64,000 bases of DNA from an uncultured Opitutia bacterium (GTDB taxonomy: Bacteria; Verrucomicrobiota; Verrucomicrobiia; Opitutales; UBA953). This document shows positions 2,421-56,460 of the stretch, piece by piece (position 1 is the stretch's first letter; each line of letters opens with the position of its first letter). The translations under genes and the position numbers were made by a program. The notes under the pieces are model-generated. The model ran no database searches. It was not told where the DNA came from and saw only the letters and a list, made by a program, of their open reading frames with translations. The DNA lies in contig CAIOAN010000002.1 in NCBI GenBank assembly GCA_903855995.1, positions 1 through 64,000 on the forward strand, given 5' to 3'.

Positions 2421-2440
2421 GGCCCGCTCGCCAATTCTCC

Positions 2441-2469
2441 TCGCAACCAAGGGGGCTCCGTCCTGTCTA
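2441..2469 (+). promoter_or_regulatory. ECF-like promoter motif upstream of beta-helix gene
   Basis: GCAACC at 2443-2448, 16 bases, then GTCTA at 2465-2469, 23 bases before the ATG at 2492. The surrounding 24 bases (2433-2456) are nearly identical to those at 4762-4786. The AAC and GTC halves resemble ECF sigma -35 and -10 elements. The same spacing recurs at five other gene starts. Role is inferred. Confidence 0.55.
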
Positions 2470-2491
2470 GGAAGCATCGGCTACCCCGCCG

Positions 2492-4735
2492 ATGCCCATG
2501 CCTCGACTACCCTTCTTCGCTGCCACGCTTTTAACGTGTGCACTCACCTTCGCCGCCCCCACCTCCGGCGATTGGTTGAACGTCCGTGAACATGGCGTTT
2601 CCGGGTCCGACTTCGCCACGACCGCGACCACGACCGCTGGCTCAAAACAAATCACCGTGACGGACGTCGGCGACTTCCAGGTCGGTCAGGCCGTCATGGT
2701 GTCCAAGGCCAACGTACGCTATACCCCGACCTTCCTCTGGGGCACGGGTGAGCGCTATAAGAATATGAAGCCTCTCAATGGCTCGGTCGAAGTCCGCGGC
2801 TACGACGGCACCGCCGGCAGTTGGGTGACCTACCTCCTAGACATCAAGCCATCCGCCCAGCCAAGTTTCCGCTGGAGCGACGACCTCGGCCGCACCTGGC
2901 AGCCCGAGCAGCCCATCACCCACGACTGGCAGAAACTGAACGGCGGCATTGAAGTGAAACTCAACGAACGCGACTGGCAGGCTGGTTACGTCATCGCCTT
3001 CGGCGGACGCGATCAACTCATCAGCCGCATCACGAAGATCGAAGGTAACGTCCTCATGCTCGAGGATGCCGCCAATCGTACCATCACCGATGGCAAGGTG
3101 CGACATAACGACACACGAGCCCTGCAAGCCGCCATCAATAAAGCGCAAAAAGAGAAACTGAAAATCTACATTCCCTCCGGACGTTATCGCCTCTCCGCCG
3201 GCCTAGAGATCCGTAATCCTGGCTCAGTCACCATCGAAGGCGCCAACCCGATTGACACCATCATCGACATGAGCGAAGGCGAAGGCGCGTGCTTCATGAC
3301 GTCGGGCGGGACGGAATTCAATCTGCGCAATCTCAGCATGGTCGGCTTCATGGGCTTTGATGAACGCGACAAGGCCGGCGAACTGCGCACCTACGGATCG
3401 ACAGCCGTCTGGGGATTCTTTCTCAAGCCCTGCAACGCCCTTGAAATCCGCAACACCCGCAGGGTTCTCGTCGAGAACTGCCATGGCTCCAAGATGTCTC
3501 GCGAATGCTTCGTGGCTACTAGTCGCAGTCGCACCGGACAGAAGGCCGGCCCGGAAGCCGGCTTCAGCAATCAGGGCGTTAAAGCCGAGAGCGAAGGCGA
3601 CGCGCCGGACACGGGTAATTGCGAGCAGGTCACCTACCTGCGTTGCTCCGTCACGAACTCCGCCCGCAACGCCTTTAACGACGTCATGTGCGGCTCAGAG
3701 AATACCTCCGTCCTACAGTGCCGCATCGTCGACGTCGGCGGCTGCACCTGGGAAGGCGCCTCCCGCTACGTGAAATTCATCGGCAACTACGTGCGTAACG
3801 CCGGGGTCGTCGGCATGGGCAACCTCGGGCCGGCTAACCGCGACAGTTCCTTCCCCACTTTGGGCTCCGGCCAACACATCATCGCGGACAACGTCTTCGA
3901 AGATATCGCCTGCTACGGTGGCGCGGCCATTCGGACGAGTCGGGGCGCCACCCAGGTCATCATCCGCAATAATCTCTTCGTGAATTTTCGCTCCCACGCG
4001 ATCGACAGCGGCGGTGGCTTCGTGCCGAACGAGTACCAGTCCGCCAACACCCTCATCACCGGCAACATCATCGACCTCACCTCACCCGACGGCACCGCGA
4101 AAGCCCGGACAGCTATCACGGTGGACGGTGATGATACCACGGTAACGGACAATCAGATCTATGTGCGCGGAAAGACCGACCCACTAGTCACTGCTATTCA
4201 TGTCCGCGAGCCATCTCGTCACGTACTCATTCACGATAACCTTATCCGCGATTGCGGCACCGGCCTGCAGGTCAGTTCCTGCTTCGCCCCCGTCAACGTC
4301 GTGCTCAGCCCGACTTCGTTCACGCCGCGGTACGGCCGCGTACCGATGGGCGGATGGCAACTCCGCGACCAGCAATACCACGGCTGGCAGCTGAATTGGC
4401 TCAAGGCTGGCAAGCCCGTCGGCTCGGCGACGATCGAGAGCTACGATTTCACGACCTTGACGTTTACGCTGACCGCATCCGCTGACTTCAAGCCCGGCGA
4501 TCTTTTTGAAATCCACCCGCCCCAACTCAACTGGGACATCCGGGCAAACACGCTCAGCGGTTGCCTCAACCCGATCGTCATCGATGCCATCGGCAGCGAG
4601 ACCTCCCTGATTCGCGATAACCAGATTAGCCGAGGCGACGCCCCGACCACGACCACCGCGATCCGACTGACCCGCGGCCAATTCGAGGTCACGGGCAACC
4701 GCCTCAACGGTTTCGCCCCGGTACCGGCCCGCTAA
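2492..4735 (+). CDS. Secreted right-handed beta-helix protein (pectate-lyase superfamily)
   Basis: 747 residues with a Sec signal (cleavage near A22). Residues 27-40 (D-W-L-N-V-R-E-H-G) open like pectate-lyase-superfamily/GH28-related beta-helix proteins, and H-N-D-T-R-A-L-Q-A-A-I-N followed by I-P-S-G-R-Y gives the usual start of the helix proper. Many N-rich turns (I-R-N-N-L-F, I-T-G-N-I-I) follow to about residue 680. Between the two lies an inserted segment (about 85-190) carrying an Asp-box-like S129-D-D-L-G-R-T-W136, unusual for this fold. Likely a polysaccharide lyase or hydrolase, or a carbohydrate-binding protein; no catalytic set can be assigned. An alternative ATG lies two codons downstream. 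Confidence 0.78.
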   Translation: MPMPRLPFFAATLLTCALTFAAPTSGDWLNVREHGVSGSDFATTATTTAGSKQITVTDVGDFQVGQAVMVSKANVRYTPTFLWGTGERYKNMKPLNGSVEVRGYDGTAGSWVTYLLDIKPSAQPSFRWSDDLGRTWQPEQPITHDWQKLNGGIEVKLNERDWQAGYVIAFGGRDQLISRITKIEGNVLMLEDAANRTITDGKVRHNDTRALQAAINKAQKEKLKIYIPSGRYRLSAGLEIRNPGSVTIEGANPIDTIIDMSEGEGACFMTSGGTEFNLRNLSMVGFMGFDERDKAGELRTYGSTAVWGFFLKPCNALEIRNTRRVLVENCHGSKMSRECFVATSRSRTGQKAGPEAGFSNQGVKAESEGDAPDTGNCEQVTYLRCSVTNSARNAFNDVMCGSENTSVLQCRIVDVGGCTWEGASRYVKFIGNYVRNAGVVGMGNLGPANRDSSFPTLGSGQHIIADNVFEDIACYGGAAIRTSRGATQVIIRNNLFVNFRSHAIDSGGGFVPNEYQSANTLITGNIIDLTSPDGTAKARTAITVDGDDTTVTDNQIYVRGKTDPLVTAIHVREPSRHVLIHDNLIRDCGTGLQVSSCFAPVNVVLSPTSFTPRYGRVPMGGWQLRDQQYHGWQLNWLKAGKPVGSATIESYDFTTLTFTLTASADFKPGDLFEIHPPQLNWDIRANTLSGCLNPIVIDAIGSETSLIRDNQISRGDAPTTTTAIRLTRGQFEVTGNRLNGFAPVPAR

Positions 4736-4769
4736 GCCACTAAAGGGGCTGCATCCGGGCAAATTCTCC

Positions 4770-4798
4770 TCGCAACCAAAGGGGGCGAGGGTTGTCTT
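4770..4798 (+). promoter_or_regulatory. ECF-like promoter motif upstream of FG-GAP gene
   Basis: GCAACC at 4772-4777, 16 bases, then GTCTT at 4794-4798, 68 bases before the ATG at 4867. It shares an extended sequence upstream (4762-4786) with the site at 2433-2456 apart from one extra A in the spacer's A-run, compensated elsewhere so that the AACC-to-GTCT distance is unchanged. Confidence 0.55.
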
Positions 4799-4866
4799 AA
4801 AGGTATCCCCAAACCTAGGCACGAGACCCCTCGCCGCCCTTGGCTCCCTTCCCCCTCTTCATCCCC

Positions 4867-6120
4867 ATGCGCTCCCTCCTCACCCTCACCCTGGCTTCGC
4901 TCTTCGCGAGCGCCACCGCCGCCGAGGTCAGCTTCTCGAAGCAGACCCTGACCAAGGACTTCGTCGCCGAAGGCGTCGCGGTAGCCGACTTCGATCATGA
5001 CGGCCACATGGATGTCGCGGCCGGCGGCTTCATCTGGTTCGGCCCCGACTTCAAGCGCAAGGAAAGCTTCACGCCTCAGCAGGTGCACGCCACCGGCCCG
5101 AACAAGACCCCTTATAACGGCGCGATTGGCTACTCTGACTACTTCATCTCCTACGCCCACGACTTCAACGGCGATGGCTGGGCCGATATCCTCGTCTACG
5201 GCTTCCCCGGCGACCCCGCCTACCTCTTCATCAACCCGCAGGGCAAGGGCGGCGATTGGGCGAAGCATAACATCTTCGACGTCGCCGATGGCGAATCCCC
5301 CGCCCTCGCGGACATCAACGGCGACGGCAAGCCGGAGCTCCTCGTCCACACGAGCGACCTCGTGAAGGACGCTAAGAAGAACAAGGGGCGCACCGGCGGC
5401 CAGTTCGGTTACGCTGAGATCGATTGGTCCAACCCGACGGGTAAAGCGAAGTTCCACCCCATCACCGAGAAATCCCCGGCCAACGACACCAAGATCTTCA
5501 AGTACACGCACGGCTACGGCGCCGGCGACGTCAATGGCGATGGCCTCGTCGACATCCTCGAGAAAGACGGCTGGTACGAACAGCCGAAGGACCTCTCCAA
5601 GGGCGAACCCTGGAAGTTCCACCCGGTCAAGTTCGCCGGCCATGGCGGCGCCCAGATGTATGTCTACGACGTCAACGGCGACGGACGCCCCGACGTGATC
5701 ACCAGCGACCACGCCCACGGCTACGGCCTCGCGTGGTTCGAACAAAACAAGGACGGCACCTTCACCGAGCATAAGCTCATGGGCGACACCAAGGCCGACG
5801 CCCCCCTCGGCGTGAACTTCAGCCAGGTCCACGCCATCGAGCTCGTCGACGTCAATGGTGACGGCCTCAAGGACATCGTCTGCGGGAAGCGTCGCTGGGC
5901 CCACGGCACCAAGGGCGACGTCGATCCGAACGACGACCCGGTACTCTACTGGTTCGAACTCAAGCGTGACGGCAAAGGCGGTGCGACCTACATCCCTCAC
6001 CTGATCGACAACGACAGCGGCGTCGGCACCCAGTTCTGGACCGGCGACATCAACAAGGACGGCAAGACCGACGTGGTCGTGGCCAACAAGCACGGCGTCT
6101 TCGTCTTCACCCAGAAGTAA
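4867..6120 (+). CDS. Secreted FG-GAP/VCBS repeat protein
   Basis: 417 residues from ATG 4867 (MRSLL..., Sec signal cut after about residue 19); an in-frame ATG at 4840 would add nine non-signal residues. At least six calcium-binding loops of the form (D/I/V)-N-G-D-G-x-x-D are visible (for example F-N-G-D-G-W-A-D, V-N-G-D-G-R-P-D, I-N-K-D-G-K-T-D), the hallmark of integrin-alpha-like FG-GAP seven-bladed propellers. Such proteins are extracellular and usually bind ligands or carry a catalytic partner; in PVC bacteria they often sit among glycan-degrading enzymes. No extra enzymatic domain is visible. Transcription probably starts at the ECF-like motif upstream. Confidence 0.82.
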   Translation: MRSLLTLTLASLFASATAAEVSFSKQTLTKDFVAEGVAVADFDHDGHMDVAAGGFIWFGPDFKRKESFTPQQVHATGPNKTPYNGAIGYSDYFISYAHDFNGDGWADILVYGFPGDPAYLFINPQGKGGDWAKHNIFDVADGESPALADINGDGKPELLVHTSDLVKDAKKNKGRTGGQFGYAEIDWSNPTGKAKFHPITEKSPANDTKIFKYTHGYGAGDVNGDGLVDILEKDGWYEQPKDLSKGEPWKFHPVKFAGHGGAQMYVYDVNGDGRPDVITSDHAHGYGLAWFEQNKDGTFTEHKLMGDTKADAPLGVNFSQVHAIELVDVNGDGLKDIVCGKRRWAHGTKGDVDPNDDPVLYWFELKRDGKGGATYIPHLIDNDSGVGTQFWTGDINKDGKTDVVVANKHGVFVFTQK

Positions 6121-6143
6121 GCCGCCCACTGTCCCATTCCCTC

Positions 6144-6185: not shown

Positions 6186-6215
6186 CTTTCACGACACCCA
6201 ACCTGCCCTCATCCC

Positions 6216-6908: not shown

Positions 6909-6909
6909 A

Positions 6910-8137: not shown

Positions 8138-8143
8138 CCTATC

Positions 8144-15512: not shown

Positions 15513-15539
15513 AAAACCTTTCCTTTGCCCGGATGTCTC
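15513..15539 (+). promoter_or_regulatory. ECF-like promoter motif upstream of first DUF1592 gene
   Basis: AAAACC at 15513-15518, 16 bases, then GTCTC at 15535-15539, 28 bases before the ATG at 15568. The first two -35 bases differ from the GC of the best sites, but the AACC-to-GTCT distance is identical. Weak hairpins at 15463-15476 and around 15495-15512 precede it. Confidence 0.45.
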
Positions 15540-15567
15540 ATAACCATCCCAGCCGGTCCCCGTCACC

Positions 15568-17859
15568 ATGCCTTTCCGCCGTTCGCTCACGACTTCCTTT
15601 CTCCTCGGCCTCGCCGCCGGGGCCGGGGCGGTCACGCCAGCGGACGAGGCCTATTTCAAGTCGGAGATCCGCCCGATCCTTTCGACCTTCTGCCTCGAGT
15701 GCCACAAGGAGGGGAAGCAGATCGATTTCCTGGCGGTCAAGGAGCTCAGCCAGATCCACTCGCAACGCGGCAACCTGCGCAGCACGGTCACGCAGCTCCG
15801 CAACCGGACGATGCCTCCCGCCAAGGAAGAGCAGCCGTCCGAAGACGATCGCCGCAAGGCGGCCGACTGGCTGGAACGCATCCTGCGCGAGACCGCCAAG
15901 GAGATGGGCTCCTACGCCGGCGCCATCACGGCCCGCCGCCTGAATCGCCTCGAATACGACAACACGATCCGCGACCTGCTCGGACTGAAATTCAAGTTCT
16001 CCCAGACCTTCCCCTCCGACGGCGGCGGCGGCGAGGGCTTCGACAACAACGGAGAGACCCTCTACCTGCCGGTGATCCTGATGGAACGCTACCTGGATGC
16101 CGCCGAGGCGATCCTCGACGAGGCGGTGCTCATTCCCTCGACCCAGCGCGCCTTCAAAACCGCAGACTTCGAACCGGGCTCGCAGTCCCGCCTGAAGCCG
16201 GGCGCCGAAGCGTCGGTCTTCTTCACCGTGACGATGACCGCACCACATACGGTGACGATCGCCGCCCGCTCCACGCAGGCCGGCAAAGCCAGCCTGGAAC
16301 TCAAGGTCGACGGCATCACGGCCCAACGCTTCGACATCGGTCCCGCCGACGCCAAGCCGACGGAGGTCCAGCTCCGGTTCTTCCGTGGGCCGCACCGTCT
16401 CACGCTCGCCTGCGCCCAAGGCGAGGCCGAGGTCGCCGGGCTCACCGTCCAGGACAACCCCAAGAAGGTCACGGAAGAACGTCGCGAAGCCCACCGACGC
16501 CTCTTCGGCGACGTCAGCTCCGCCACCCTCGCCGGCAAGTCCCCCGCCGAACGCCGGCAGGCCGCCGCGGGCATCCTACGCAAGTTCGCCCGCCTCGCCT
16601 ACCGGACGCCGGTGACGGACAAGGACATCGAGAAGAACCTCCTGCTCTTCGACCGCTCCGCGTCCCGTGGCGAGAACTTCGAGACCTCGATGAAGCTGGC
16701 GCTCAAGGCCGTCCTGGTCTCGCCGCGTTTCCTCTTCCGCATCGAACAGGACCACGTCGAACCCGGTATCCGCCCGGTGACCGACCATGAACTCGCCGTC
16801 CGGCTTTCCTACTTCCTCTGGAACAGCACGCCCGACGCCGAACTCGATGCGCTCGCGGACGCCGGCAAGCTCAACCAGCCGGAGACCCTCAAGGCGCAGC
16901 TGAAGCGCATGATGGCCGACCCGAAGTCCGCCTCGTTCCTGCTGACCTTCACCGAACAGTGGCTGGGCACCAAGGCGGTCGGCGATACCGTGCCGGCCTC
17001 GCCTGAAGCCAAGGACTCCAAGGGCATCTACACCAAGGAAGTCGGTGCCGACCTGCGCACCGAGGCCCTGTCGTTGATGAACTATCTCATCCGCGACAAC
17101 CGCAGCCTGCTCGAGCTGATCTCCGCCGACTACACGTTCCTCAACGGGCGGCTCGCCGACTACTACGGCATCGACGGCGTGAAGGGTGACAAATTCCGCA
17201 AGGTGGCCATCAGCGACGGACGCCGCGGCGGCGTGCTCGGCCTTGGCGCCGTCCAGATGCTCACTTCGCCCGGCACCCGCACGAGCCCGGTGCTCCGCGG
17301 CTCCTGGGTGCTCGGCACGCTCCTCGGCACGCCCGTCCCCGCCCCGCCGCCCAACATCCCTTCGCTCGATTCGGCCGGCGGCAAGAAAAGCCGCACGCTT
17401 TCCCTGCGCGAGAAGCTGGCCGTGCACCGCGCCGACGCCACCTGCGCCTCGTGCCATAACGTCATCGATCCGATCGGCTTCTCGCTCGACCACTACGATC
17501 GCCTCGGCCGCTGGCGCGACGTCGATGAGAAGGGCAAGCCGATCGACGCCTCGGGTCAGACCGCCGAAGGCAAGGCCTTCGAAGGCATCGCCGGCTTCAA
17601 GACGCAGATCCTCGACCGCAAGCACGACTTCGCCCGCCAGGTCACGTCGAAGATGCTCGGCTACGCCCTGGGTCGCAGCCTTGCCGACCGCGACGACGGC
17701 ACGATCGAAGGCATCGTGAATCGGCTCGAGGCAGACGACTTCAAGACCCAGACGCTCCTGGAAGAGGTCGTCCTGAGCGTCCCCTTCCGGAACCGCAACG
17801 AACTGGCCAACGCGGCCAAACCCAAGAAGGCCGCCAAGGTCGAAAAGGAGCCGAAATAA
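15568..17859 (+). CDS. DUF1592-family secreted c-type cytochrome (DUF1587/1592/1588/1585), copy 1
   Basis: 763 residues with Sec signal (residues 1-20). Two haem-attachment motifs are visible: C42-L-E-C45-H46 at the N terminus and C626-A-S-C629-H630 in the DUF1588 region. Domain order: cytochrome-like N terminus, DUF1587 (R-R-L-N-R-L-E-Y-D-N-T-I-R-D-L-L), a beta-rich insert (about 195-300), DUF1592 (L-A-V-R-L-S-Y-F-L-W), DUF1588 (R-T-S-P-V-L-R-G) and DUF1585 (C-terminal). Such proteins are abundant in planctomycetes and Verrucomicrobiota and are thought to be periplasmic or surface redox proteins of polysaccharide metabolism; the reaction is unknown. It is paired with the DUF1552 gene 63 bases downstream. 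Confidence 0.9.
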   Translation: MPFRRSLTTSFLLGLAAGAGAVTPADEAYFKSEIRPILSTFCLECHKEGKQIDFLAVKELSQIHSQRGNLRSTVTQLRNRTMPPAKEEQPSEDDRRKAADWLERILRETAKEMGSYAGAITARRLNRLEYDNTIRDLLGLKFKFSQTFPSDGGGGEGFDNNGETLYLPVILMERYLDAAEAILDEAVLIPSTQRAFKTADFEPGSQSRLKPGAEASVFFTVTMTAPHTVTIAARSTQAGKASLELKVDGITAQRFDIGPADAKPTEVQLRFFRGPHRLTLACAQGEAEVAGLTVQDNPKKVTEERREAHRRLFGDVSSATLAGKSPAERRQAAAGILRKFARLAYRTPVTDKDIEKNLLLFDRSASRGENFETSMKLALKAVLVSPRFLFRIEQDHVEPGIRPVTDHELAVRLSYFLWNSTPDAELDALADAGKLNQPETLKAQLKRMMADPKSASFLLTFTEQWLGTKAVGDTVPASPEAKDSKGIYTKEVGADLRTEALSLMNYLIRDNRSLLELISADYTFLNGRLADYYGIDGVKGDKFRKVAISDGRRGGVLGLGAVQMLTSPGTRTSPVLRGSWVLGTLLGTPVPAPPPNIPSLDSAGGKKSRTLSLREKLAVHRADATCASCHNVIDPIGFSLDHYDRLGRWRDVDEKGKPIDASGQTAEGKAFEGIAGFKTQILDRKHDFARQVTSKMLGYALGRSLADRDDGTIEGIVNRLEADDFKTQTLLEEVVLSVPFRNRNELANAAKPKKAAKVEKEPK

Positions 17860-35310: not shown

Positions 35311-35322
35311 CCTGATGCTAAC

Positions 35323-35346
35323 GAGACCGCCACCCCTGGCGGTCTC
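35323..35346 (+). promoter_or_regulatory. Hairpin covering the ribosome-binding region of the sigma factor gene
   Basis: Nine-base perfect arms (GAGACCGCC / GGCGGTCTC) with a six-base loop end seven bases before the ATG at 35353, so the stem occupies the place of a ribosome-binding site. It may be part of a terminator or may limit translation of the sigma factor; nothing like a Shine-Dalgarno sequence lies outside it. Confidence 0.45.
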
Positions 35347-35352
35347 TTGCGT

Positions 35353-35892
35353 ATGGGAGACTCCCCCACCCCCTCCGACCACACCCTGCAGGTGCAGCGA
35401 CTCTTCGTCCAGCACCAGCAGGTGGTGCTATATTACGTCCTGACGATCGAACCGAATCTGGGCGACGCCCAGGACATCGTCCAAGAAGCGTTCCTGACCG
35501 TGAGCCGCAAGGCGGAGACTTACGCCCTTGGCACCAACTTCCCGGCGTGGGCGTGCGTGGTCGCACGCTATCAGGCCCTGCAGTTCCAACGCAGCCGCGC
35601 CCGCGCGGCCGCCCGGCTAGACGACGACGTGATGGAAATGCTCTACGGTGAAGACGGACCGACGCCTGAGATGCTCGAGCCGCGCACCCAAGCGCTCAAA
35701 GGTTGCCTCGGCAAACTCGCCCCGAAGGCGGCCGACCTCATTCGCCGCCGCTACCACCTCGGGCAGATGCCGGAAGACATCGCCCCCGCCGTCGGCTGGA
35801 CGCCCAACTCCGTGCGCGTCGCCCTCACCCGCGCCCGCCAAACCCTCCGCGCCTGCGTTGATCGCTCGCTCGGCACCTCTGAACTTTCATGA
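35353..35892 (+). CDS. ECF-type RNA polymerase sigma factor
   Basis: 179 residues from ATG 35353; a TTG two codons upstream falls close to the hairpin and is less likely. Region 2: L-Y-Y-V-L-T-I and D-A-Q-D-I-V-Q-E-A-F-L-T-V (about 39-51); region 4: D-L-I-R-R-R-Y, then T-P-N-S-V-R-V-A-L-T-R-A-R-Q-T-L-R near 150-165. This is the planctomycete/verrucomicrobial ECF family pattern. Its stop overlaps the start of a membrane protein with an anti-sigma-like N terminus, the usual arrangement for a membrane-controlled regulator. Candidate reader of the AACC-N16-GTY sites found upstream of six genes here, though its own upstream region lacks an exact copy. Confidence 0.9.
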   Translation: MGDSPTPSDHTLQVQRLFVQHQQVVLYYVLTIEPNLGDAQDIVQEAFLTVSRKAETYALGTNFPAWACVVARYQALQFQRSRARAAARLDDDVMEMLYGEDGPTPEMLEPRTQALKGCLGKLAPKAADLIRRRYHLGQMPEDIAPAVGWTPNSVRVALTRARQTLRACVDRSLGTSELS

Positions 35893-36839
35893 ACGACGAA
35901 CGTTACCAAGTCCTCTTCGACGCCTGGTCGGAGTCCCGCCTGACTCCGGCCGAAGCGACCGAGCTCAGCACGCTCCTTCGCGCCGACCCCGAAGCCCGCG
36001 TGCGCTTCCGCGAAGCCGCGACCTTCCACGGTCAACTTCACGCCGCGCTCGACGCCTTGAATCTCGATCAAGCCTCCGCCCTGGAGAAAACCATCACCTT
36101 CCCCTTGCGCGGACGGGCCATGAGCCTCGCTGCCTCGCTACTAGCCTTCGGAATGGTCGTAACCTCGCTCGGATGGCTATTCGCCGCCAAGGCCAATACT
36201 TCGGAAATCCACGCCGTCGAAATCGCGGATGGTAGCTTTGAACTGTCGCGGGGCGCCATCCCTCACGGTTTCCCGAAGAATGTCTTCTCCTGGGGCGGAG
36301 ATCGCAGCGAGGTCCTGACCCACGACGGACAACACCGCCAATCGCTCCGTTTCATCGAAGCCGAAGGCGAACCCAATATTCCGAACAGCCCGCGCCAGTC
36401 GTGCGATGTCTTCCAGATCATCGACCTCAAGTCCGTGCGGACGGAACTCCTAACCTCCAGCGAAGCCTTCGTGGAACTGCAGGCCAGCCTCCTCGACGCC
36501 CGCCCGACGAAAGCCGAGCCTGTCCGCTTCATCGCCAAGGTCTACGTCTTCGAAGGCAGCCCTGAGTCGATCGTCGGTAACTGGCCGCCGTCCGCCGACC
36601 AAGTCCTCGCCAGTGGCTCGCAGTGCCACATCAGCCCCGGAGGTAAGCCAGGCGAATGGAAAACACTTACGGCACGTTGCGTCCTGCCTCCCACCGCCGG
36701 TTTCCTCGTCGTCCACATCGGCGCCGGCAGCGCCGGCCAACCCGGTCAGGCTTCGCCCAAGCTCGGGGAGCAATTCGCGGACGACATCCGCCTGTCCCTC
36801 CACACGCGCCCAAATAAGGCCGAAGTGGCCGCACGCTGA
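35889..36839 (+). CDS. Membrane anti-sigma-like regulator (FecR-type N terminus)
   Basis: 316 residues, ATG overlapping the sigma factor stop (ATGA). Residues 1-60 are a charged cytosolic helical region (D-A-W-S-E-S-R-L-T-P-A-E, R-V-R-F-R-E-A-A-T-F-H-G-Q-L-H) like those of FecR-type anti-sigma proteins. One membrane segment spans about 78-100. Residues 100-316 are extracytoplasmic and beta-rich, resembling a jelly-roll/LamG-like sensor. It would hold the ECF sigma factor inactive until an extracellular signal, perhaps a glycan, is sensed; that mode of action is inferred from position and topology. Confidence 0.8.
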   Translation: MNDERYQVLFDAWSESRLTPAEATELSTLLRADPEARVRFREAATFHGQLHAALDALNLDQASALEKTITFPLRGRAMSLAASLLAFGMVVTSLGWLFAAKANTSEIHAVEIADGSFELSRGAIPHGFPKNVFSWGGDRSEVLTHDGQHRQSLRFIEAEGEPNIPNSPRQSCDVFQIIDLKSVRTELLTSSEAFVELQASLLDARPTKAEPVRFIAKVYVFEGSPESIVGNWPPSADQVLASGSQCHISPGGKPGEWKTLTARCVLPPTAGFLVVHIGAGSAGQPGQASPKLGEQFADDIRLSLHTRPNKAEVAAR

Positions 36840-48265: not shown

Positions 48266-48294
48266 TCGCAACCTTCAGAGAGTTTCGCTGTTTG
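48266..48294 (+). promoter_or_regulatory. ECF-like promoter motif, near-leaderless, upstream of SASA gene
   Basis: GCAACC at 48268-48273, 16 bases, then GTTTG at 48290-48294, only six bases before the ATG at 48301. If used with the usual spacing, transcription would begin at or within a few bases of the start codon, giving a leaderless message, which fits the missing ribosome-binding site. Confidence 0.55.
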
Positions 48295-48300: not shown

Positions 48301-49848
48301 ATGCGTTCCCCCCGCTTCCTGACCGTCCTGCTGGCCGTCCTGGCCGGCTGCTCCAGCCTGTTCGCCGCCGCCGGCTTTCGCCTAGGCTCTCCGATTTCCG
48401 ACCACATGGTCCTGCAGCGCGAGAAGCCTGTGGCCGTGTGGGGCTGGGCTGATGCGGGCGAATCCGTGACCGTCGCCTTCGCCGGCCAGTCCAAAAGCGC
48501 GGTCGCCGGTGCCGACGGCAAATGGACGCTCAAGCTCGACGCCCTTGTCGCTTCCGCCGAATCGCGCACGCTGACCGTCACCGGCAAGGACAGCCACAAG
48601 CTAGAAGTGAAGGACGTGCTCGTTGGCGAGGTCTGGCTCGGCTCCGGCCAGTCGAACATGTCGTTCACCGTCCAGTCGGCCAACCACTTTGACGCCGAGA
48701 AAGCCGCCGCCAATTACCCGCTCATCCGCGAATACCACGAGGCCTCCAACCCGACCCCGACGCCGCAGGCCGAAGGCAAGGGCAAATGGTCCGCCTGCAC
48801 GCCCGCCACCGTCGGCGGCTACTCCGCGGTGCTCTACTTCTTCGGCCGCGAGATCCATAAGGAAGTCGGCGTCCCAGTCGGCCTGATCAACACCTCCGTC
48901 GGCGGCACGCCGATCGAAGCCTGGACGGCCGCCGAGGTACAACTGGCCGACCCCGCCACCAAGGAACGCTACGAGGTCGCCCTCAAGAACTTCAACGCCT
49001 TCGACCCCGCCAAGGCTACCGCCGCCTACGAAAAGCAGCTCGTCACTTGGAAGGTCGCCGCAGACAAGGCGAAGGCCGAAGGCAAGGAGATCCCCCGCAA
49101 GCCCTATGAGCCGATCTCATTCCGCGCCTTCCATGGCGGCCCGTCCGGCCTCTACAACGCCAAGGTCGTGAACCTCGCCCCTTACACCCTGCGCGGCATG
49201 CTCTGGTATCAAGGCGAAGGCAATGCGGGCGCCCCCGAACTCTACCACACGCAGCTCACCGCCCTGGTGACCAGCTGGCGCAAGCTCTGGCAGGATGAAG
49301 TCCCGTTCGCCTGGGTGCAGCTGCCCAACTACCGCGACTCCGACTCCGAGAGCTGGCCGCGCATCCGCGAGTCGATGATGAAGACGCTCGCGCTGCCGAA
49401 TACCGGCATGGCCATCACGCTCGGCCTCGGCGACCCGAAGGACATCCATCCCAAGAACAAGCAGGACGTCGGCCTCCGCCTTTCCTACTGGGCGCTCGGC
49501 TCCGTCTACGGACGTAAAGTTCCCGCGCTGAGCGGACCGCTTCCCGCCGGCAGCAAGGTCGAGGGCGCCTCCATCCGCGTCTCCCTCAAGCACGCCGAAG
49601 GACTCAAGACCAGCGATGGCGCCGCCCCCCGCGGCCTGCTGATCGCCGGCGCCGACAAGGCCTGGAAGAAAGCCAGCGGCCGCATCGAAGGGTCCGAAGT
49701 GGTCGTCAGCAGCCCCGAAGTCACCTCCCCCGTGGCCGTCCGTTATGCTTGGGCTGAGAACCCGGACTGCAACCTGGTCAACGGCGCCGGCCTCCCGGCC
49801 ACCAGCTTCCGCACCGACGACTGGCCCCTGCCGGCAGCCAAGAAGTAA
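48301..49848 (+). CDS. Sialate O-acetylesterase-like protein (SASA family), likely lipoprotein
   Basis: 515 residues from ATG 48301; a TTG three codons upstream overlaps the promoter motif. The signal ends with L-A-G-C (Cys17), a lipobox. A beta domain (about 28-105) precedes the SASA core: G-S-G-Q-S118-N-M as nucleophile block, T-S-V-G-G-T-P-I-E-A-W, L-W-Y-Q-G-E-G-N and the C-terminal D-I-H-P dyad. These enzymes remove O-acetyl groups from sialic acids or other sugars. Given the sialidase-like genes at the window start, a sialic-acid substrate is possible, but plant and algal polymer roles are also known. Confidence 0.9.
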   Translation: MRSPRFLTVLLAVLAGCSSLFAAAGFRLGSPISDHMVLQREKPVAVWGWADAGESVTVAFAGQSKSAVAGADGKWTLKLDALVASAESRTLTVTGKDSHKLEVKDVLVGEVWLGSGQSNMSFTVQSANHFDAEKAAANYPLIREYHEASNPTPTPQAEGKGKWSACTPATVGGYSAVLYFFGREIHKEVGVPVGLINTSVGGTPIEAWTAAEVQLADPATKERYEVALKNFNAFDPAKATAAYEKQLVTWKVAADKAKAEGKEIPRKPYEPISFRAFHGGPSGLYNAKVVNLAPYTLRGMLWYQGEGNAGAPELYHTQLTALVTSWRKLWQDEVPFAWVQLPNYRDSDSESWPRIRESMMKTLALPNTGMAITLGLGDPKDIHPKNKQDVGLRLSYWALGSVYGRKVPALSGPLPAGSKVEGASIRVSLKHAEGLKTSDGAAPRGLLIAGADKAWKKASGRIEGSEVVVSSPEVTSPVAVRYAWAENPDCNLVNGAGLPATSFRTDDWPLPAAKK

Positions 49849-49876: not shown

Positions 49877-49904
49877 TCAGGGGGTTCGCCTTGCAACCCC
49901 CTGA
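49877..49904. repeat. Inverted repeat overlapping the -35 element of the PVC dehydrogenase gene
   Basis: Ten-base arms (TCAGGGGGTT and AACCCCCTGA) with an eight-base loop; the right arm contains the AACC of the ECF-like site at 49891. It could be an operator or a terminator of the preceding gene that shares bases with the promoter. Confidence 0.45.
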
Positions 49905-49919
49905 GGTTTGGGCTGTCTT
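49891..49919 (+). promoter_or_regulatory. ECF-like promoter motif upstream of PVC dehydrogenase gene
   Basis: GCAACC at 49893-49898, 16 bases, then GTCTT at 49915-49919, ten bases before the ATG at 49930. The expected transcript would have a leader of only a few bases. Confidence 0.55.
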
Positions 49920-49929
49920 GAAAACCAGC

Positions 49930-52491
49930 ATGAAGACCCCGCTTCTCGCCCTGGCCCTTGCCCTCGGCGTCACCCCCAGTTTCGCCCTAAACAAAGGCAA
50001 CGCCGGCCCCGCCGAAGTGCAACTGAAGTTCAACCTCCCACCGCCCGCGCCGCTTTCCCCAGAAGAGGAACTGAAGACCTTCCGACTCGAGCCGGGCTTC
50101 CGAATCGAACTCGTGGCCAGCGAGCCGATGATCGAATCCCCGGTGGCCATCAGCTTCGACGACCAGGGCCGGATGTTCGTCGTCGAGATGCGCAGCTACA
50201 TGCGCGACCTCGAAGGCACCACGGAAAAGGACCCGACCAGCCGCATCTCACTGCTGACCGACACCGACGGTGACGGGCGGATGGATAAGGCCACTCCCTT
50301 TGCCGACGGCTTGGTGATGCCCCGCGGCGTCATGGCCGTCAAAGGTGGCGCCTTCGTGGCTGAACCGCCGAACCTATTCTTCCTCCGCGACACGAAGGGC
50401 ACAGGAGTGGCCGACGAGAAGATCCTGATCTCGGCGGACTTCGGCACCTTCGGTGGGCAGCCCGAGCACATGGCCAACACGCCCACGTGGACGATGGATA
50501 ACCGTATCTACGCCGCCAACTACGGAGCGAGCTTCCGACTCAACAACGGCGCCTGGCAAAAAGGCCCCGGACTCGGGCGCGGCCAGTGGGGCCTCAGCCA
50601 GGACGACACGGGGCGCTTGTTCTACAACTATAACTCTGACCTACTCCGCGCCGACTTACTGCCCGCTGCCGCCTACGCGCGCAATCCGTTGCTCCGCGAC
50701 GCCAAGGCCATCAATAGCCAGGTGATGAAAAGCCAGGCGGTCTACCCGTCGCACCCGACCCCGGGCGTGAACCGCGGTTATGACGCCAAGTCCCTGCGCG
50801 AAGACGGTACGCTCGCCGCCGCCACCTCCACCTGCGGCGCCGCCATCTACCGTGGCGATGCTTTCCCCATTGAATACCGCGGCAACGCCTTCATCCCCGA
50901 GCCCTCCTCGAACTTGGTGAAGCGCGTGACAATCAGCGAAAAAGACGGCGTGCTGACCGGTGCCGACGCCTGCGTCGGTAAGGAATTCCTGACCTCGACC
51001 GACGAGCGCTTCCGCCCGGTGATGATGGCCAATGGCCCCGACGGTGCGCTCTACGTCGTCGACCTGTATCGCGGCATGCTCCAACACCCGGCCTTCCTCA
51101 CGCACTACCTGATCGCCAACATCAAAGCGCGTCACCTCGAGCTCCCCGTCACCGGCGGACGCATCTGGCGCATCGTGCGCGACGACAAGACCTCCCCCCG
51201 TGCCACAAAGATCCCGACCGAGACCGTCGCCCGTATCAAACTCCTCACCCACGCCAACGGCTGGGTACGCGATACGGCCCAGCGCGTCTTGGTCGAATCA
51301 GCTGATGCCGCCGCCGCTGCCCCGCTGCGCGCTCTGCTGGCCGACAATAACGCCCCCGCCGTCGCCCGCCTGCACGCACTCTGGACGCTCGATGGCCTCG
51401 CCGCGGCTCTTCCGGCCGACGTACGCGTCGCCCTGAAAGATACCGATCTGCAAGTCCGCGCCGCTGCCGTGCGTATCGCCCCCGCCGAAATGCTGCCAGA
51501 ACTCTGCGCCCTGAAGGACGAGAAAGAAACCGTCGTGCTCGCCCACCTCGCGATCCGCCTCTCCGCCGCGAATCTCCCGACCACCGACAAGGCGCTGGCT
51601 GAGCTCCTTATCACGCACGGCGAGAATGCGCTCATCCGCGAAGGTGCACTGACCGGTGCCCGTGGCCGAGAGGTCTTGCTCGCCCAGGCGGTCGCCGCCC
51701 TCGGTAACAACGACAATCGCATCCAGTCCGGCCCAGCGCTCGAAGCCTTCGCCACGCTCGTCTCCCAAGCCGGCAAGGCCGGACCGTTCGAAGAAATGCT
51801 CACGCTGGCCGCCAGCCTGAGCGACCGCCCCGCCCTCCGCGCCGCCATCATCCACGGACTCGACCAGACCGCCCGCGATCCCAAGTCGAAGAAACCCACC
51901 CCGCTTAAGACCGTCTGGCTCAACAGCGAACCCGTCGCTCTGACCAAATTGAAAAAGGCCGTCACCGACGCCGGCGGCGTCAAGAGCATGGAAAACATCG
52001 CCTCCCGCCTCGCCTGGGTCGGCAAACCTGGCGCCCCCTCGCCGCCGAAGATCGTCGCGCTCACCAAAACTCAGCAGGCGCTCTTCGACAAAGGCAAGGC
52101 GACCTTCACCACCCTCTGCGCCGCCTGCCACCAGCCGCACGGCTACGGCCTCGACGGACTCGCCCCTCCGCTCGTCGACAGCGATTGGGTGCTCGGCAAG
52201 CCCGACGTGACCGCACGCATCGTCCTCAACGGCCTCGGCGGCCCGGTCAAAGTCGGTGCCCGCACCTGGGATCTCACGATGCCGCCCATGGGTGTCCTCA
52301 GCGACGAAGACGTCGCTGGCGTACTCACCTACATCCGCCGCGAGTGGGAACACAACGGATCGCCAGTCGACGCGAAGTTCGTCCAAGGTATCCGCAAGCA
52401 GTTCGCGGATCACCCGAACTCCTGGACTGCGGAAGAACTCCGCCCGCCGGCCAAGAAGACCGGCAAGGGCGCGAAGGAAGATTCTAAATAA
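49930..52491 (+). CDS. PVC-type CxxCH membrane-bound dehydrogenase with HEAT repeats
   Basis: 853 residues from ATG 49930 with Sec signal (1-19). The N-terminal half matches the Pirellula/Verrucomicrobium dehydrogenase propeller: F-R-L-E-P-G-F-R-I-E-L-V-A-S-E-P, F-D-D-Q-G-R-M-F-V-V-E-M-R, D-G-D-G-R, P-D-G-A-L-Y-V-V-D-L-Y-R-G. Residues about 435-650 are short helical HEAT-like repeats, and a C-terminal cytochrome c domain carries C730-A-A-C733-H734 with a downstream M-P-P-M axial ligand candidate. Thought to oxidise sugars or alcohols outside the cytoplasm and pass electrons to haem. Starts a run with the second sulfatase, SASA protein and P450. Confidence 0.9.
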   Translation: MKTPLLALALALGVTPSFALNKGNAGPAEVQLKFNLPPPAPLSPEEELKTFRLEPGFRIELVASEPMIESPVAISFDDQGRMFVVEMRSYMRDLEGTTEKDPTSRISLLTDTDGDGRMDKATPFADGLVMPRGVMAVKGGAFVAEPPNLFFLRDTKGTGVADEKILISADFGTFGGQPEHMANTPTWTMDNRIYAANYGASFRLNNGAWQKGPGLGRGQWGLSQDDTGRLFYNYNSDLLRADLLPAAAYARNPLLRDAKAINSQVMKSQAVYPSHPTPGVNRGYDAKSLREDGTLAAATSTCGAAIYRGDAFPIEYRGNAFIPEPSSNLVKRVTISEKDGVLTGADACVGKEFLTSTDERFRPVMMANGPDGALYVVDLYRGMLQHPAFLTHYLIANIKARHLELPVTGGRIWRIVRDDKTSPRATKIPTETVARIKLLTHANGWVRDTAQRVLVESADAAAAAPLRALLADNNAPAVARLHALWTLDGLAAALPADVRVALKDTDLQVRAAAVRIAPAEMLPELCALKDEKETVVLAHLAIRLSAANLPTTDKALAELLITHGENALIREGALTGARGREVLLAQAVAALGNNDNRIQSGPALEAFATLVSQAGKAGPFEEMLTLAASLSDRPALRAAIIHGLDQTARDPKSKKPTPLKTVWLNSEPVALTKLKKAVTDAGGVKSMENIASRLAWVGKPGAPSPPKIVALTKTQQALFDKGKATFTTLCAACHQPHGYGLDGLAPPLVDSDWVLGKPDVTARIVLNGLGGPVKVGARTWDLTMPPMGVLSDEDVAGVLTYIRREWEHNGSPVDAKFVQGIRKQFADHPNSWTAEELRPPAKKTGKGAKEDSK

Positions 52492-52503
52492 CCTCCCATA
52501 AAG

Positions 52504-54075
52504 ATGCTCCGCCTATTCCTCGCCATCCTTGCGATCTGTGCCGGAGCGTCCGCCGCCACCAAACCCAACATCCTCGTCATCCTGGTCGATGACATGGGTT
52601 TCTCAGATGTCGGGTGCTACGGCAGCGAAATCCCCACGCCGAACCTCGACGCCCTGGCGAAGAACGGCCTGCGCTTCACGCAGTTCTATAACACCGGTCG
52701 CTGCTGCCCCACCCGCGCCGCGCTCCTCACGGGCGTCTACTCCCACCAGGCCGGCGTCGGCCACATGGTCAATAACCAGAAGGCCCCGGGCTATGTCGGC
52801 CACCTCAACGACTCCTGCGTGACCATGGCCGAAGTGCTGCGACCCGCGGGTTATTTCACCGCGATGAGCGGCAAGTGGCACGTCGGCTTCGAACAGGGGG
52901 TAACGCCGAAGACCCGCGGTTTCGATCGCAGCCTATGCGCCGCGGCCGGCGGCTTTTACTACGCCGAATCGGCCCGCGCCCAGCTCTTCCTGGATGGCGA
53001 GAAGATCGCGAGCGACGACGCCCGCCTGCCTAAAAACTGGTATACTACGGATCTCTGGACCACCTTCGGTCTCAAATTCATCGACGAGGCCGTCGCCGCA
53101 AAGAAGCCCTTCTACCTCCACCTCTGCCACAACGCACCGCACTTCCCGCTCCAAGCGCCGAAGGAGGATATCGAGAAATTCCTCGGCAAATATAAACTGG
53201 GATGGGAAGAAGTCCGCGCCCGCCGCTACGCCCGCCAGCTGGAGTCCGGCCTGATCGACAAACAGTGGGCCAGTTCCCCGCTCCCGGCCTCCATCAAGGC
53301 ATGGCAAGACGTGCCCACCGAAGAGCAGGCCCGCTTTGATCACCTGATGGCCGTCTACGCCGCGGTGGTGAATCATATGGACAAGGCGATCGGAGACCTC
53401 GTGGCTGGCCTCAAGCAACGCGGCGTCCTGGACAACACGCTCATCCTGTTCATGAGCGACAACGGGGGCAACGCCGAGAGCGGCGCCCACGGACGCACCG
53501 AAGGCGACCCCACGAAAGGTCCTTCGCAATGGTATTGTGGCGAAAGCTGGGCCTACGCTGAGAACACGCCCTTCCGCCTCTACAAGCATTTCAACCACGA
53601 AGGCGGCATCGCCACCCCTCTCATCGCCCATTGGCCCGCAGGCATCGCCGCCAAGAATGAATTCCGCCGCCAACCCGGACATCTGATTGATGTGATGGCG
53701 ACGGTAGTCGATGTCGCCGGCGCGAACTACCCCAAAGAATTCAACGGCAAGGCCATCCTTCCGATGGAAGGCCGCAGCCTCGTACCCGCCTTCACGGACA
53801 AGCCTATCGAACGCGAAGCGATCTTCTGGGAACATGAAGGCAACGCCGCCGTGCGCGTCGGCGACCTGAAACTCGTCCGACAATCCCGCAACGGCGCCTG
53901 GGAGCTCTACGACATGAAGGCCGACCGGACCGAATTACACAACCTGGCCACCGCGCAACCCGCCAAGGCCAAGGAACTGGCGGCCCTCTGGGACGCCTGG
54001 GCGGAGCGTGCCCACGTGAAGCCTTACCCCGCCGCCGAAGGCAAGGGGAAGAAGAATAAAAACAAAGGCGAGTAA
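52504..54075 (+). CDS. Secreted sulfatase (formylglycine-dependent, type I), second copy
   Basis: 523 residues with Sec signal (1-18). L-V-D29-D30 metal site and formylglycine motif C67-C-P-T-R71, followed by S-G-K-W-H-V and M-S-D-N-G-G-N. The sequence resembles arylsulfatase A-type enzymes and is only moderately similar to the sulfatase at 24721, so different sulfate positions are likely. A lysine-rich C terminus (K-G-K-K-N-K-N-K) matches the tail style of the other sulfatase. Starts 12 bases after the PVC dehydrogenase stop and is followed 15 bases later by a SASA protein. Confidence 0.92.
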   Translation: MLRLFLAILAICAGASAATKPNILVILVDDMGFSDVGCYGSEIPTPNLDALAKNGLRFTQFYNTGRCCPTRAALLTGVYSHQAGVGHMVNNQKAPGYVGHLNDSCVTMAEVLRPAGYFTAMSGKWHVGFEQGVTPKTRGFDRSLCAAAGGFYYAESARAQLFLDGEKIASDDARLPKNWYTTDLWTTFGLKFIDEAVAAKKPFYLHLCHNAPHFPLQAPKEDIEKFLGKYKLGWEEVRARRYARQLESGLIDKQWASSPLPASIKAWQDVPTEEQARFDHLMAVYAAVVNHMDKAIGDLVAGLKQRGVLDNTLILFMSDNGGNAESGAHGRTEGDPTKGPSQWYCGESWAYAENTPFRLYKHFNHEGGIATPLIAHWPAGIAAKNEFRRQPGHLIDVMATVVDVAGANYPKEFNGKAILPMEGRSLVPAFTDKPIEREAIFWEHEGNAAVRVGDLKLVRQSRNGAWELYDMKADRTELHNLATAQPAKAKELAALWDAWAERAHVKPYPAAEGKGKKNKNKGE

Positions 54076-54090
54076 AGCCAGCCGACCCGC

Positions 54091-55203
54091 ATGCGCCGAA
54101 CCATCTGCGGACTCTCCGCCGCGCTCTCACTCCAGGGAGCCGAGCTAAAAATCAGCGAGCCCGGCGACTATCAGATCTTCCAGCGCTCGGACCGCGCGCA
54201 CGGCACCATTCACATCGATGCGACTTGCCGCGACGCCACGGGGACCGAATTCGCCTATCGTGTCATCGACACCCAGGGGAAAGGCGACTGGTCCAAGCCC
54301 GTTACCGCGACGGAATCAATCCGCAGCAGCATTCTCGCCCCTGCCGGCGGATGGTATCGAGTCGAAGCGCGGCTGACCAAAGGCGACCAAACCGTCGCCG
54401 AGAAGTCGGTCGAACATGTCGGCGTGGGCGAAATCTTCCTCGTCGCCGGGCAATCCAACTCTGCAAATTACGGTGAGGAAAAACAGTCGGTGAAATCTGG
54501 CAAAGTCGCCTCTTTTGACGGCGCGACCTGGCGCCTCGCCCACGACCCGCAGCGCGGCGCCGGCGGCAACGGTGGCAGTTTTATGCCCCCGCTCGGCGAT
54601 ACCTTAGCCGCGAAGTTCGGCGTTCCCATCGGCTTCATTCCGATTGGCATCGGGGCCACGAGCGTCCGCGAATGGCTCCCCGCCGGAGTGCCCTTCCCGC
54701 AGCCGCCGACGATCATCGGGCGGGTGACGAAACGCCCTGATGGCACTTGGGAATCTAAAGGGGCGGCATACGCCACCCTCCTCGCTCGCGAAAAGCAGTT
54801 CGGCCCGCACGGCTTCCGCGCCGTGCTGTGGCATCAAGGCGAGAGTGATGCCAATCAGAAGGACCCGACCCGCACGCTACCCGGCAATCTTTATCAGGAA
54901 TATCTCACCAAGATTATCCACGATTCGAACCAGACGGCCGGGTGGCCGATTCCCTGGTTCGTCGCGCAGGTCAGCTATCACGTGCCCGGCGATGAAGCCT
55001 CGGCCGATATCCGCGACGCCCAGGCCACGCTGTGGAAGAACGGCCTCGCCCTGCCCGGCCCGGACAGCGACGCCCTGAAATCGGAATGGCGCCAGAACGG
55101 AGGCAAAGGCGTCCATTTCAGCGGACCCGGCCTGCGCGAACACGCCGCCCGCTGGGCCGAACGGATTACGCCTTGGCTCGAGCAGCAACTCAGCCAGAAG
55201 TAA
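54091..55203 (+). CDS. Sialate O-acetylesterase-like (SASA) protein with N-terminal Ig-like domain
   Basis: 370 residues. The N terminus is a short signal-like stretch (1-17). Residues 18-112 form a beta-sandwich; the SASA core begins V-A-G-Q-S122-N-S and continues with G-I-G-A-T-S-V-R-E-W and L-W-H-Q-G-E-S-D-A-N; the late H in G-V-H-F-S may supply the catalytic His. Shorter than the SASA protein at 48301 and organised differently. Presumed carbohydrate O-acetylesterase. Gap of 15 bases to the sulfatase before it and four to the P450 after it, so co-transcription is likely. Confidence 0.83.
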   Translation: MRRTICGLSAALSLQGAELKISEPGDYQIFQRSDRAHGTIHIDATCRDATGTEFAYRVIDTQGKGDWSKPVTATESIRSSILAPAGGWYRVEARLTKGDQTVAEKSVEHVGVGEIFLVAGQSNSANYGEEKQSVKSGKVASFDGATWRLAHDPQRGAGGNGGSFMPPLGDTLAAKFGVPIGFIPIGIGATSVREWLPAGVPFPQPPTIIGRVTKRPDGTWESKGAAYATLLAREKQFGPHGFRAVLWHQGESDANQKDPTRTLPGNLYQEYLTKIIHDSNQTAGWPIPWFVAQVSYHVPGDEASADIRDAQATLWKNGLALPGPDSDALKSEWRQNGGKGVHFSGPGLREHAARWAERITPWLEQQLSQK

Positions 55204-55207
55204 TCCC

Positions 55208-56374
55208 ATGTTCGGCGGCAAATGTCCCTTCGGCCACAAGCCCACTGACCCCTTCAAGGCCAAACGCGAAGCCGCGCCTGTCGCCCGTTACGAATTCCAA
55301 GGCGAACAGATTCCGATGATCCTGCGTCACGCCGACGTGCGCCAAGCGGCGAAGGATTGGCAGACCTATAGCTCCGACGCCCCTTGCCGCGTGCCGATTC
55401 CCTCCGAGGAATCCGTCCGCTCTGTCCGCCAGCTACCACTCGAAATCGATCCGCCTGCTCACGCCGACTACCGGGCCATCGCGGAGCCGTTCTTTCTGCG
55501 TCCGAAGTCCGCCGCAATGATCGCCCAGGTCGAAGCCCTCACGGAGGAGCTCCTGCGCGACGCTTTTAACCGCGCGGGAATCGAAATCGTCCATGACTTC
55601 GCCCTGCCTCTGCAATCTCGAGCGCTCACTTACCTGCTCAACGTACCCGAGCAAGAAGCCGACCTCTGGATCGGCTGGGGCACCCACGTTTTCCGTAAGG
55701 CCGACGGCCTGAGCAAGAGTTCCGGACTCGATGAATATATTGAAGCAAAGTTCACCGCCACCGCCGCCCAGCCAGGAGATGATTTCTTCTCCGCCCTGCA
55801 CCAGGCCACCTTCCAGGGTCGCCCGCTGACGCATCAGGAAAAACTCGGGTACGCGAACATCGCCTTCGCCGGCGGACGCGACACAATCATCCACACCGTT
55901 GCCTGTACGCTCGGCCACCTCGCGGCGAACCTGGAGCTACTCGCCTATTTGCGCGAAGACCCAAAGCGCATCACCCATGCGAGCGAAGAATTCTTCCGCT
56001 ACTTCATGCCCTTGACGCATATCGGACGTGTCTGCCCCGTGGCGACCAATGTGCACGGCGAACAAGTCCCCGCCGGCGGACGCGTCGCCCTCGGTTGGGC
56101 TTCCGCGAACCGCGATGAATCCGTCTTCGCCCAGGCCGACACATTCAAGATCGACCGTAAACCCAATCCCCATCTTTCGTTCGGCTTCGGTGAACACCTG
56201 TGTCTCGGCGCAGCTCATGCCCGCCTGATTCTTCGCACCCTGCTGCAGAAGTGCGTCGAGCACGTGGGCTCATTGCAAGTCGTGTCCGCCGTCGAGAGGG
56301 TGGAGAAAGAGCACTCCTACGAGCGCAAACTAGGCTACGAATCGCTGGTCCTGCAGGTCCGCCCGCGGGGTTGA
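55208..56374 (+). CDS. Cytochrome P450
   Basis: 388 residues, no signal peptide, cytoplasmic. Haem-thiolate loop F-G-F-G-E-H-L-C332-L-G, E261-F-F-R264 (ExxR), and the I-helix oxygen-binding A-G-G-R-D-T near 221-226. The N terminus starts M-F-G-G-K-C-P-F-G-H, a pattern seen in a bacterial class I subgroup. It needs a ferredoxin and reductase, neither of which lies in the window. Four bases after a SASA gene and part of the sulfatase/esterase run, so it may act on the released sugar; P450s that demethylate O-methyl sugars are known from algal-polysaccharide degraders, but nothing here proves that substrate. Confidence 0.9.
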   Translation: MFGGKCPFGHKPTDPFKAKREAAPVARYEFQGEQIPMILRHADVRQAAKDWQTYSSDAPCRVPIPSEESVRSVRQLPLEIDPPAHADYRAIAEPFFLRPKSAAMIAQVEALTEELLRDAFNRAGIEIVHDFALPLQSRALTYLLNVPEQEADLWIGWGTHVFRKADGLSKSSGLDEYIEAKFTATAAQPGDDFFSALHQATFQGRPLTHQEKLGYANIAFAGGRDTIIHTVACTLGHLAANLELLAYLREDPKRITHASEEFFRYFMPLTHIGRVCPVATNVHGEQVPAGGRVALGWASANRDESVFAQADTFKIDRKPNPHLSFGFGEHLCLGAAHARLILRTLLQKCVEHVGSLQVVSAVERVEKEHSYERKLGYESLVLQVRPRG

Positions 56375-56418
56375 TGAGGATTGCCAGCGGCGGGAGGCGG
56401 ACCTAGGCCTTCTTTGCC

Positions 56419-56446
56419 CCAACCTTCGCATTTTCGCGGGGTTCCT
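56419..56446 (+). promoter_or_regulatory. ECF-like promoter motif (weaker) upstream of membrane spermidine-synthase-like gene
   Basis: CCAACC at 56419-56424, 16 bases, then GTTCC at 56441-56445, 15 bases before the ATG at 56461. The -10 half is the least conserved of the six, but the spacing is exact. Confidence 0.4.
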
Positions 56447-56460
56447 ATCACATACCCCTC

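Follow-up and report, generated by a model that had tools for sequence, protein, structure and literature searches.

Promoters read by extracytoplasmic function (ECF, group IV) sigma factors are characterised, according to a review (PMC8103513), by the hallmarks AAC in the -35 element and CGT in the -10 element. In the Streptomyces coelicolor sigma-E regulon (PMC6767563), an AAC -35 element is combined with TC in the -10 element over a spacer of 16 or 17 bp, about half of the targets are cell-envelope genes, and genus-wide conservation was used as evidence, as it is here. Extracellular polysaccharide-degrading enzymes are placed under alternative sigma factors in cellulolytic clostridia, where excerpts of two papers name sigma-I (PMC6056542, PMC4711584). 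The present analysis concerns a motif, AACC followed after exactly 16 bases by GTC or GTT (AACC-N16-GTY), that had been predicted upstream of six genes in positions 1 to 64,000 of contig CAIOAN010000002.1 (assembly GCA_903855995.1) from an uncultured Opitutia bacterium; this stretch of 64,000 nucleotides (nt) is called the window below. The original prediction regarded the motif as the promoter of a coordinated surface-glycan regulon under the ECF sigma factor encoded at 35353.

All six sites were found with the exact spacing (Table 1), and four of them join (T/C)GCAACC to TGTC or TGTT, as had been said. In its context the observation is stronger than was claimed: an ECF-like promoter class precedes exported glycan and redox genes, so that the regulon holds in outline, but the named sigma factor does not. 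The preferred reading, an ECF-type promoter regulon with no single sigma factor specified, is given a probability of about 0.82 on the sequence evidence. The locus shares with ECF promoters in general, as summarised in the review (PMC8103513), the AAC of the -35 element, GT(C/T) in the -10 element, a fixed spacing and a putative anti-sigma gene after each candidate sigma gene; it differs in the extended elements GCAACC and TGTCTTRA, in its lineage-restricted set of exported glycan enzymes and in ECF genes that lack the site. The sigma-E regulon, likened to it by promoters and targets alone, is directed (PMC6767563) to envelope stress genes, whereas the targets here are exported catabolic enzymes. 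In the titles and abstract openings of the papers that the searches listed, no description of this motif or of ECF promoters in Opitutae was found; the regulon is an undescribed one, of a known ECF kind, in an uncultured lineage.

The genome assembly comprises 2.66 Mb in 13 contigs, and upstream regions were analysed in an 864-kb sample that included the window (L009-L048), with genes called by a home-made script that rewarded a Shine-Dalgarno sequence. On both strands of the whole window the bare pattern AACC-N16-GTY occurred 18 times against 10.9 expected, a number reached in 4 of 100 shuffles, so that its window-wide enrichment is only weak. The 24 window upstream regions that were 20 nt or longer (2,225 bases) held seven matches against 0.21 expected, which none of 2000 shuffles attained; this enrichment is strong, and the claim that six matches in so little non-coding sequence are notable is borne out. 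Upstream regions outside the window gave 13 matches against 6.5 for the bare pattern (1 of 200 shuffles as high), 6 against 0.41 for CAACC-N15-TGTY and 5 against 0.09 for GCAACC-N15-TGTY (0 of 200 shuffles for each of the latter two). An unbiased count of 4-mer dyads over 447 upstream regions ranked AACC-N15-TGTC first (12 against 1.13), and the profile of AACC-Nk-GTY over these regions peaked at N16 only, with 20 sense and 9 antisense matches and a shuffle mean of 6.8; other spacings from k=8 to 26 gave 2-11 sense matches. GCAACC-N15-TGTY stood upstream of nine genes (62 kb of upstream sequence), and within called genes two matches were counted in 1.5 Mb, both strands summed. Expectation-maximisation resulted in a consensus of roughly TYGCAACC-N15-TGTCTTAAAG; the position matrix scored its own training sequences, and the scores in Table 1 therefore serve as description only. 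Chance, acting through a short degenerate motif chosen by eye, would agree with the mild excess of the bare pattern in the window and with its control-level frequency genome-wide; upstream enrichment, spacing specificity, orthologue conservation and exported targets all contradict it, and for the group of sites this explanation is already refuted and its probability negligible. Single weak sites may be chance matches, for example an additional AACC-N16-GTC at 15542, the second one before 15568.

Relatives were gathered via the protein encoded at 49930 and are mostly metagenome-assembled genomes (MAGs) labelled Opitutae or Verrucomicrobia, which from isolate names alone are read as freshwater bacteria. 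The family set consisted of 79 genomes, 55 of them from the same genus, and most relatives are incomplete MAGs. The strict form YKGCAACC-N16-GTCTTRA was detected in 27 of the 79 genomes, all belonging to the genus (27/55), with 32 matches against one in the control; two of the 32 (L057, L058) look like chance occurrences inside coding sequence. GCAACC-N15-TGTCTT was present in 47/79 genomes, with 125 matches against 2, and was distributed by our own count as 39/55 in the genus, 5/9 in g2, 3/6 in g5, 0/1 in g3 and 0/8 in g4. Several matches in g2 and g5 (L249, L251, L253-L255, L280-L282) precede genes for exported proteins and others do not. Within a single uncultured Opitutae genus the regulon would cover exported proteins, and a thinner form of it may exist in sister genera. 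A genome of the sister genus g2 (G003) showed five matches and none in the control, and its three readable downstream genes (L249, L280, L281) encode exported proteins. Among 238 genomes from other families of the order, a hand count gave 53 matches to GCAACC-N15-TGTCTT against about 52 in the control; the exact form of the motif is thus not seen in these genomes above background.

Upstream of 49930, conservation could be followed in 38 related loci, 33 of which included the start region. AACY-N16-GTY lay 34-40 nt before the aligned start in 20/33, namely in 19/19 at an identity of at least 73% and in 1/14 below it, where some starts were extrapolated; in this footprint both elements are kept and the spacer varies freely. 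The arrangement before 4867 is repeated in two relatives (L285, L297), with the site 95 nt before a similar gene, and AACC-N16-GTC is found upstream in four of seven orthologues of 15568, its own copy included. The 49930 site lies within an inverted repeat, GGGGGTT...AACCCCC (49886-49902), which several orthologues keep with changed arms and which was not seen at the other type A sites in the window.

Export was scored by a crude rule that was positive for 272 of 630 sample genes (43% background). The 97 loci with matches held 73 distinct GCAACC-N15-TGTCTT sites, a subset of the 125 family matches; a gene started 30-110 nt downstream of 65 of them and none such of the other eight. Sixty-one of these 65 genes were scored as exported, the remainder being two sulfatases, L302 and L248; the sulfatases and L302 may be exported proteins with a mis-set start. 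In the sample from this genome, 8/9 genes following GCAACC-N15-TGTY were scored as exported against 187/447 in the background (Fisher p 0.005), the ninth (64571) looking exported by eye, and 15/18 following AACC-N16-GTY (p 0.0003). At spacings of 13, 14, 15, 17 and 18 the exported share was 3/5, 2/8, 1/4, 1/3 and 0/2. The original prediction had named equal frequency before housekeeping genes as the sign of an ordinary promoter of the lineage, and with non-exported genes as the control this was not observed. The rank of AACC-N15-TGTC as the strongest dyad upstream of sample genes would suit such a housekeeping promoter, but the motif precedes only nine of 447 genes, nearly all exported, and TTGAC is concentrated 31-40 nt ahead of starts, which is consistent with a different main promoter; this explanation is considered highly improbable.

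The target families identified in this genome, among the genes run, were DUF7133 (four genes), PSD/PSCyt types, DUF1501, DUF6807, SASA (two) and sulfatase, together with a Gfo/Idh protein with a GH109 C-terminus, BNR with FG-GAP, FG-GAP, beta-helix and a BD-FAE esterase. One further target matched 3-keto-disaccharide hydrolase below the cut-off, and two had no family. The regulon would accordingly be composed mainly of oxidative and hydrolytic families of glycan degradation (DUF7133 with cytochrome c, PSD/PSCyt, DUF1501, SASA and sulfatase), with Gfo/Idh-GH109 proteins exported by the twin-arginine (Tat) route and DUF6807 in addition. Such glycan-degradation families are typical of Planctomycetes and Verrucomicrobia.

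Downstream of 94 distinct GCAACC-N15-TGTY sites, an ATG opening a frame was found at 83. The first in-frame ATG, counted from at least 30 nt after AACC, was situated at 31-37 nt in 50/83; by this rule a nearer in-frame ATG at 25-27 nt was set aside in 7/83, and none occurred at 28-29 nt. At the 31-37 nt sites the last base of GTC is located 8-14 nt before the ATG. The distance from an ECF -10 element to the transcription start is usually 6-9 nt. The sites hence combine AAC in the presumed -35 element, GTC or GTT in the presumed -10 element and one fixed spacing with a position that fits the transcription start of the downstream gene. An ECF-type sigma factor would read T/CGCAACC as the -35 and TGTCTTRA as the -10 element, with 17 bases from AAC to GTC, and transcription would begin at the start codon or a few bases before it; since most start codons lie 31-37 nt after AACC, the mRNAs are probably leaderless or nearly so. 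No Shine-Dalgarno peak was seen in 349 upstream regions of the 864-kb sample, though the gene caller rewarded one, and the TTGAC clustering mentioned above was measured in the same regions; together these suggest that short leaders may be general in the lineage, which may use leaderless mRNAs widely. The same geometry bears on the possibility that the motif is no sigma -35/-10 pair but an operator through which a DNA-binding repressor or activator controls an ordinary promoter. The sites at 56421 and 49895 are indeed within palindromic sequence, and conservation on an 18-base scale could represent two half-sites; the halves are, however, unlike and at most sites not inverted copies, the spacing is fixed, no palindrome was seen at 2443, 4772 and 48268, and with a distance to the start that peaks at 31-37 nt a further promoter would not fit downstream. 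An operator is accordingly held to be improbable.

One uniform motif for all six genes, as had been proposed, was not confirmed. The site before 56461, a near-palindrome and for that reason a match to the pattern in either orientation, is a separate conserved variant (type B), with AACCTT...GGGGTT kept in 22 of the 27 orthologues for which upstream sequence was available (3/30 loci had none). A similar sequence stands ahead of a further ECF gene, C1:23436, where AAC(T/C)...GGAGTT/GGGGTT was found 31-35 nt from the start in 23/30 aligned loci, six of the other seven having a start mis-set by the script; there the distance from AACY to GTT is 16 bases (17 in two loci), the same as in type A. A site before a sulfatase gene (C13:172853) joins TTGCAACC to GGGGTT. 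In upstream regions of this genome AACYT-N13-GRGTT gave four sense and no antisense matches, and 0-2 at the other spacings tested, all of these being small numbers.

The gene at 35353 is a genuine ECF sigma gene (Table 1), and as the general reader of the motif it is largely refuted. In its favour it is a bona fide TIGR02989 member in the same island, and its orthologues, at an identity of at least 77%, occur in 8/55 genomes of the genus, all eight with the motif. No orthologue was found, on the other hand, in 31/39 motif-bearing genomes of the genus, many of which are incomplete assemblies; in the 16 that are at least 90% complete it was present in three, one interrupted, and missing from 13. 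For this reason, and because AACC-N16-GTY was absent before it and its own conserved upstream sequence is a different one, 35353 is not supported as the reader of the motif; that it nevertheless reads the motif is regarded as very improbable. Two of the eight copies are interrupted (L096 in G050, L097 in G029): one has an internal stop, and the other is split into two pieces that overlap in different frames, which looks like ongoing loss of the gene in these relatives. Directly 5' of 35353 there is a hairpin, GAGACCGCC/GGCGGTCTC, retained in most orthologues and flanked by conserved TGCTAAC; the whole element TGCTAAC...GGTCTC is possibly the gene's own promoter or a terminator. The product of 35889..36839, the putative anti-sigma factor, had no family match in Pfam or NCBIfam.

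Sigma-70 region 2 was found in seven genes of the genome, four of them ECF-sized, and each of the four is followed by a putative membrane anti-sigma gene as judged by eye; the three core ECF candidates would each be controlled through such a partner. Sigma-I factors form a family of their own, with anti-sigma factors that sense carbohydrates, and no domain of that sort turned up here, no search aimed at it having been made. The three core genes C1:23436, C7:66071 and C13:20313 were present in 73/79, 63/79 and 62/79 family genomes (E-value cut-offs 1e-25, 1e-20 and 1e-40, respectively), and in 16, 15 and 14 of the 16 motif-bearing genomes of the genus that are at least 90% complete. The reader is probably one of these three core factors and not the accessory 35353. 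The kinship of the sequence upstream of C1 with types A and B makes C1 the first candidate, though not proof, and its chance of being the reader is put at about even; C13, which is missing from g4 just as the motif is, is for that reason the second candidate, at low odds, and C7 seems unlikely, as does some other factor.

Upstream of C13, a conserved block was rejected as a candidate element, being the coding start of a divergent gene on the other strand. A TCGCAAC block before C7 was likewise dropped as a type A -35 element: by eye it continues into TTTGAC in several relatives and is followed 16-17 bases later by a TANNNT-like sequence, which makes a sigma-70 promoter likelier there. In the same region (L150-L179), the block TCGCAACTGCTTTGAC is invariant in 29/30 aligned regions across the genus, the thirtieth having a mis-set start, and looks like an operator touching the sigma-70 -35 element.

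Several results weigh against the proposed assignment to an ECF regulon with a core reader. GCAACC-N16-GTY showed no enrichment across the genome as a whole (50 matches against 60 in the reversed control); T precedes GTY in 21 of those 50 by our own count, and the signal is visible only with gene-upstream position and T before GTY. Autoregulation is common, at about 55% of ECF factors in the review (PMC8103513), yet AACC-N15..17-GTY was absent from the 3.2-kb loci that hold this genome's four ECF genes, and autoregulation was dropped as a pointer to the cognate sigma factor. G044, which is 94% complete and has five matches, is without C7 and C13; G035 and G065 (83% and 86% complete, with matches) are without C1; and the motif-free g4 has a distant C1 homologue (35-43% identity) in 8/8 genomes. 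The choice among C1, C7 and C13 is not settled by co-occurrence.

Table 1. Motif sites, downstream genes and sigma-factor locus in the window
Positions	Strand	Feature	Remarks
2443..2467	+	Type A site GCAACC-N16-GTC (with TGTC), AACC at 2445	Before beta-helix gene; matrix score 25.3
2492/2498..4735	+	Exported right-handed beta-helix protein	From gene calls and families; two ATGs in one frame, 2492 and 2498
4772..4796	+	Type A site, AACC at 4774	Before 4867
4867..6120	+	Exported FG-GAP repeat protein	
15515..15537	+	Type A-like site AAAACC...ATGTC, AACC at 15515	Before 15568
15568..17859	+	Exported DUF1592-type (PSD/PSCyt) protein	
35316..35352	+	TGCTAAC and GGTCTC around hairpin before ECF gene	Kept in orthologues
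35353..35892	+	Accessory ECF sigma gene, TIGR02989 subfamily	140.4 bits against curated cut-off 124.55
35889..36839	+	Putative anti-sigma gene, overlapping sigma gene	One hydrophobic stretch; presumed role
48268..48292	+	Type A site with GTT, AACC at 48270	31 nt before ATG 48301; matrix score 26.3
48301..49848	+	Exported SASA carbohydrate esterase	
49893..49917	+	Type A site, AACC at 49895	35 nt before ATG 49930; conserved before orthologues
49930..56374	+	DUF7133/cytochrome c gene (49930-52491), then sulfatase (52504), SASA (54091) and 55208	
56421..56443	+	Type B site AACCTT...GGGGTT (a near-palindrome), AACC at 56421	40 nt before ATG 56461
56461..58569	+	Membrane protein similar to fused MFS/spermidine synthase	NF037959, 58 bits against cut-off 40

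The genes in 49930-56374 likely form one operon, as suggested by their gaps of 4-15 bases. As a whole, the window forms a glycan-degradation island that encodes two sulfatases, two SASA proteins, GDSL and AXE1 esterases, three DUF1592-type and two DUF1552 proteins and one GDSL/3-keto-disaccharide hydrolase; it contained no tRNAs and no Rfam matches at the gathering threshold.

A more specific version of the regulon is put forward tentatively and is rather doubtful: one core ECF factor might act as a dedicated switch for exported glycan-oxidising enzymes (PSD/PSCyt, DUF1501, DUF7133, Gfo/Idh, sulfatase) made from leaderless mRNAs, reading the AACCTT...GGGTT form as well, including that of its own gene; a single envelope signal would then turn on a scattered secreted catabolic set.

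DUF1592 and its PSD/PSCyt partners, DUF1501, DUF7133 and DUF6807 are listed in Pfam as families of unknown function. A shared promoter would join them with sulfatases, esterases and Tat-exported sugar oxidoreductases in one regulon, and would thus be evidence on what these families do. GCAACC-N15-TGTCTT, in most cases 31-37 bases ahead of the start codon, would offer a marker for further members in uncultured genomes, and the system would provide a case in which leaderless mRNAs and an ECF regulon may be tested jointly.

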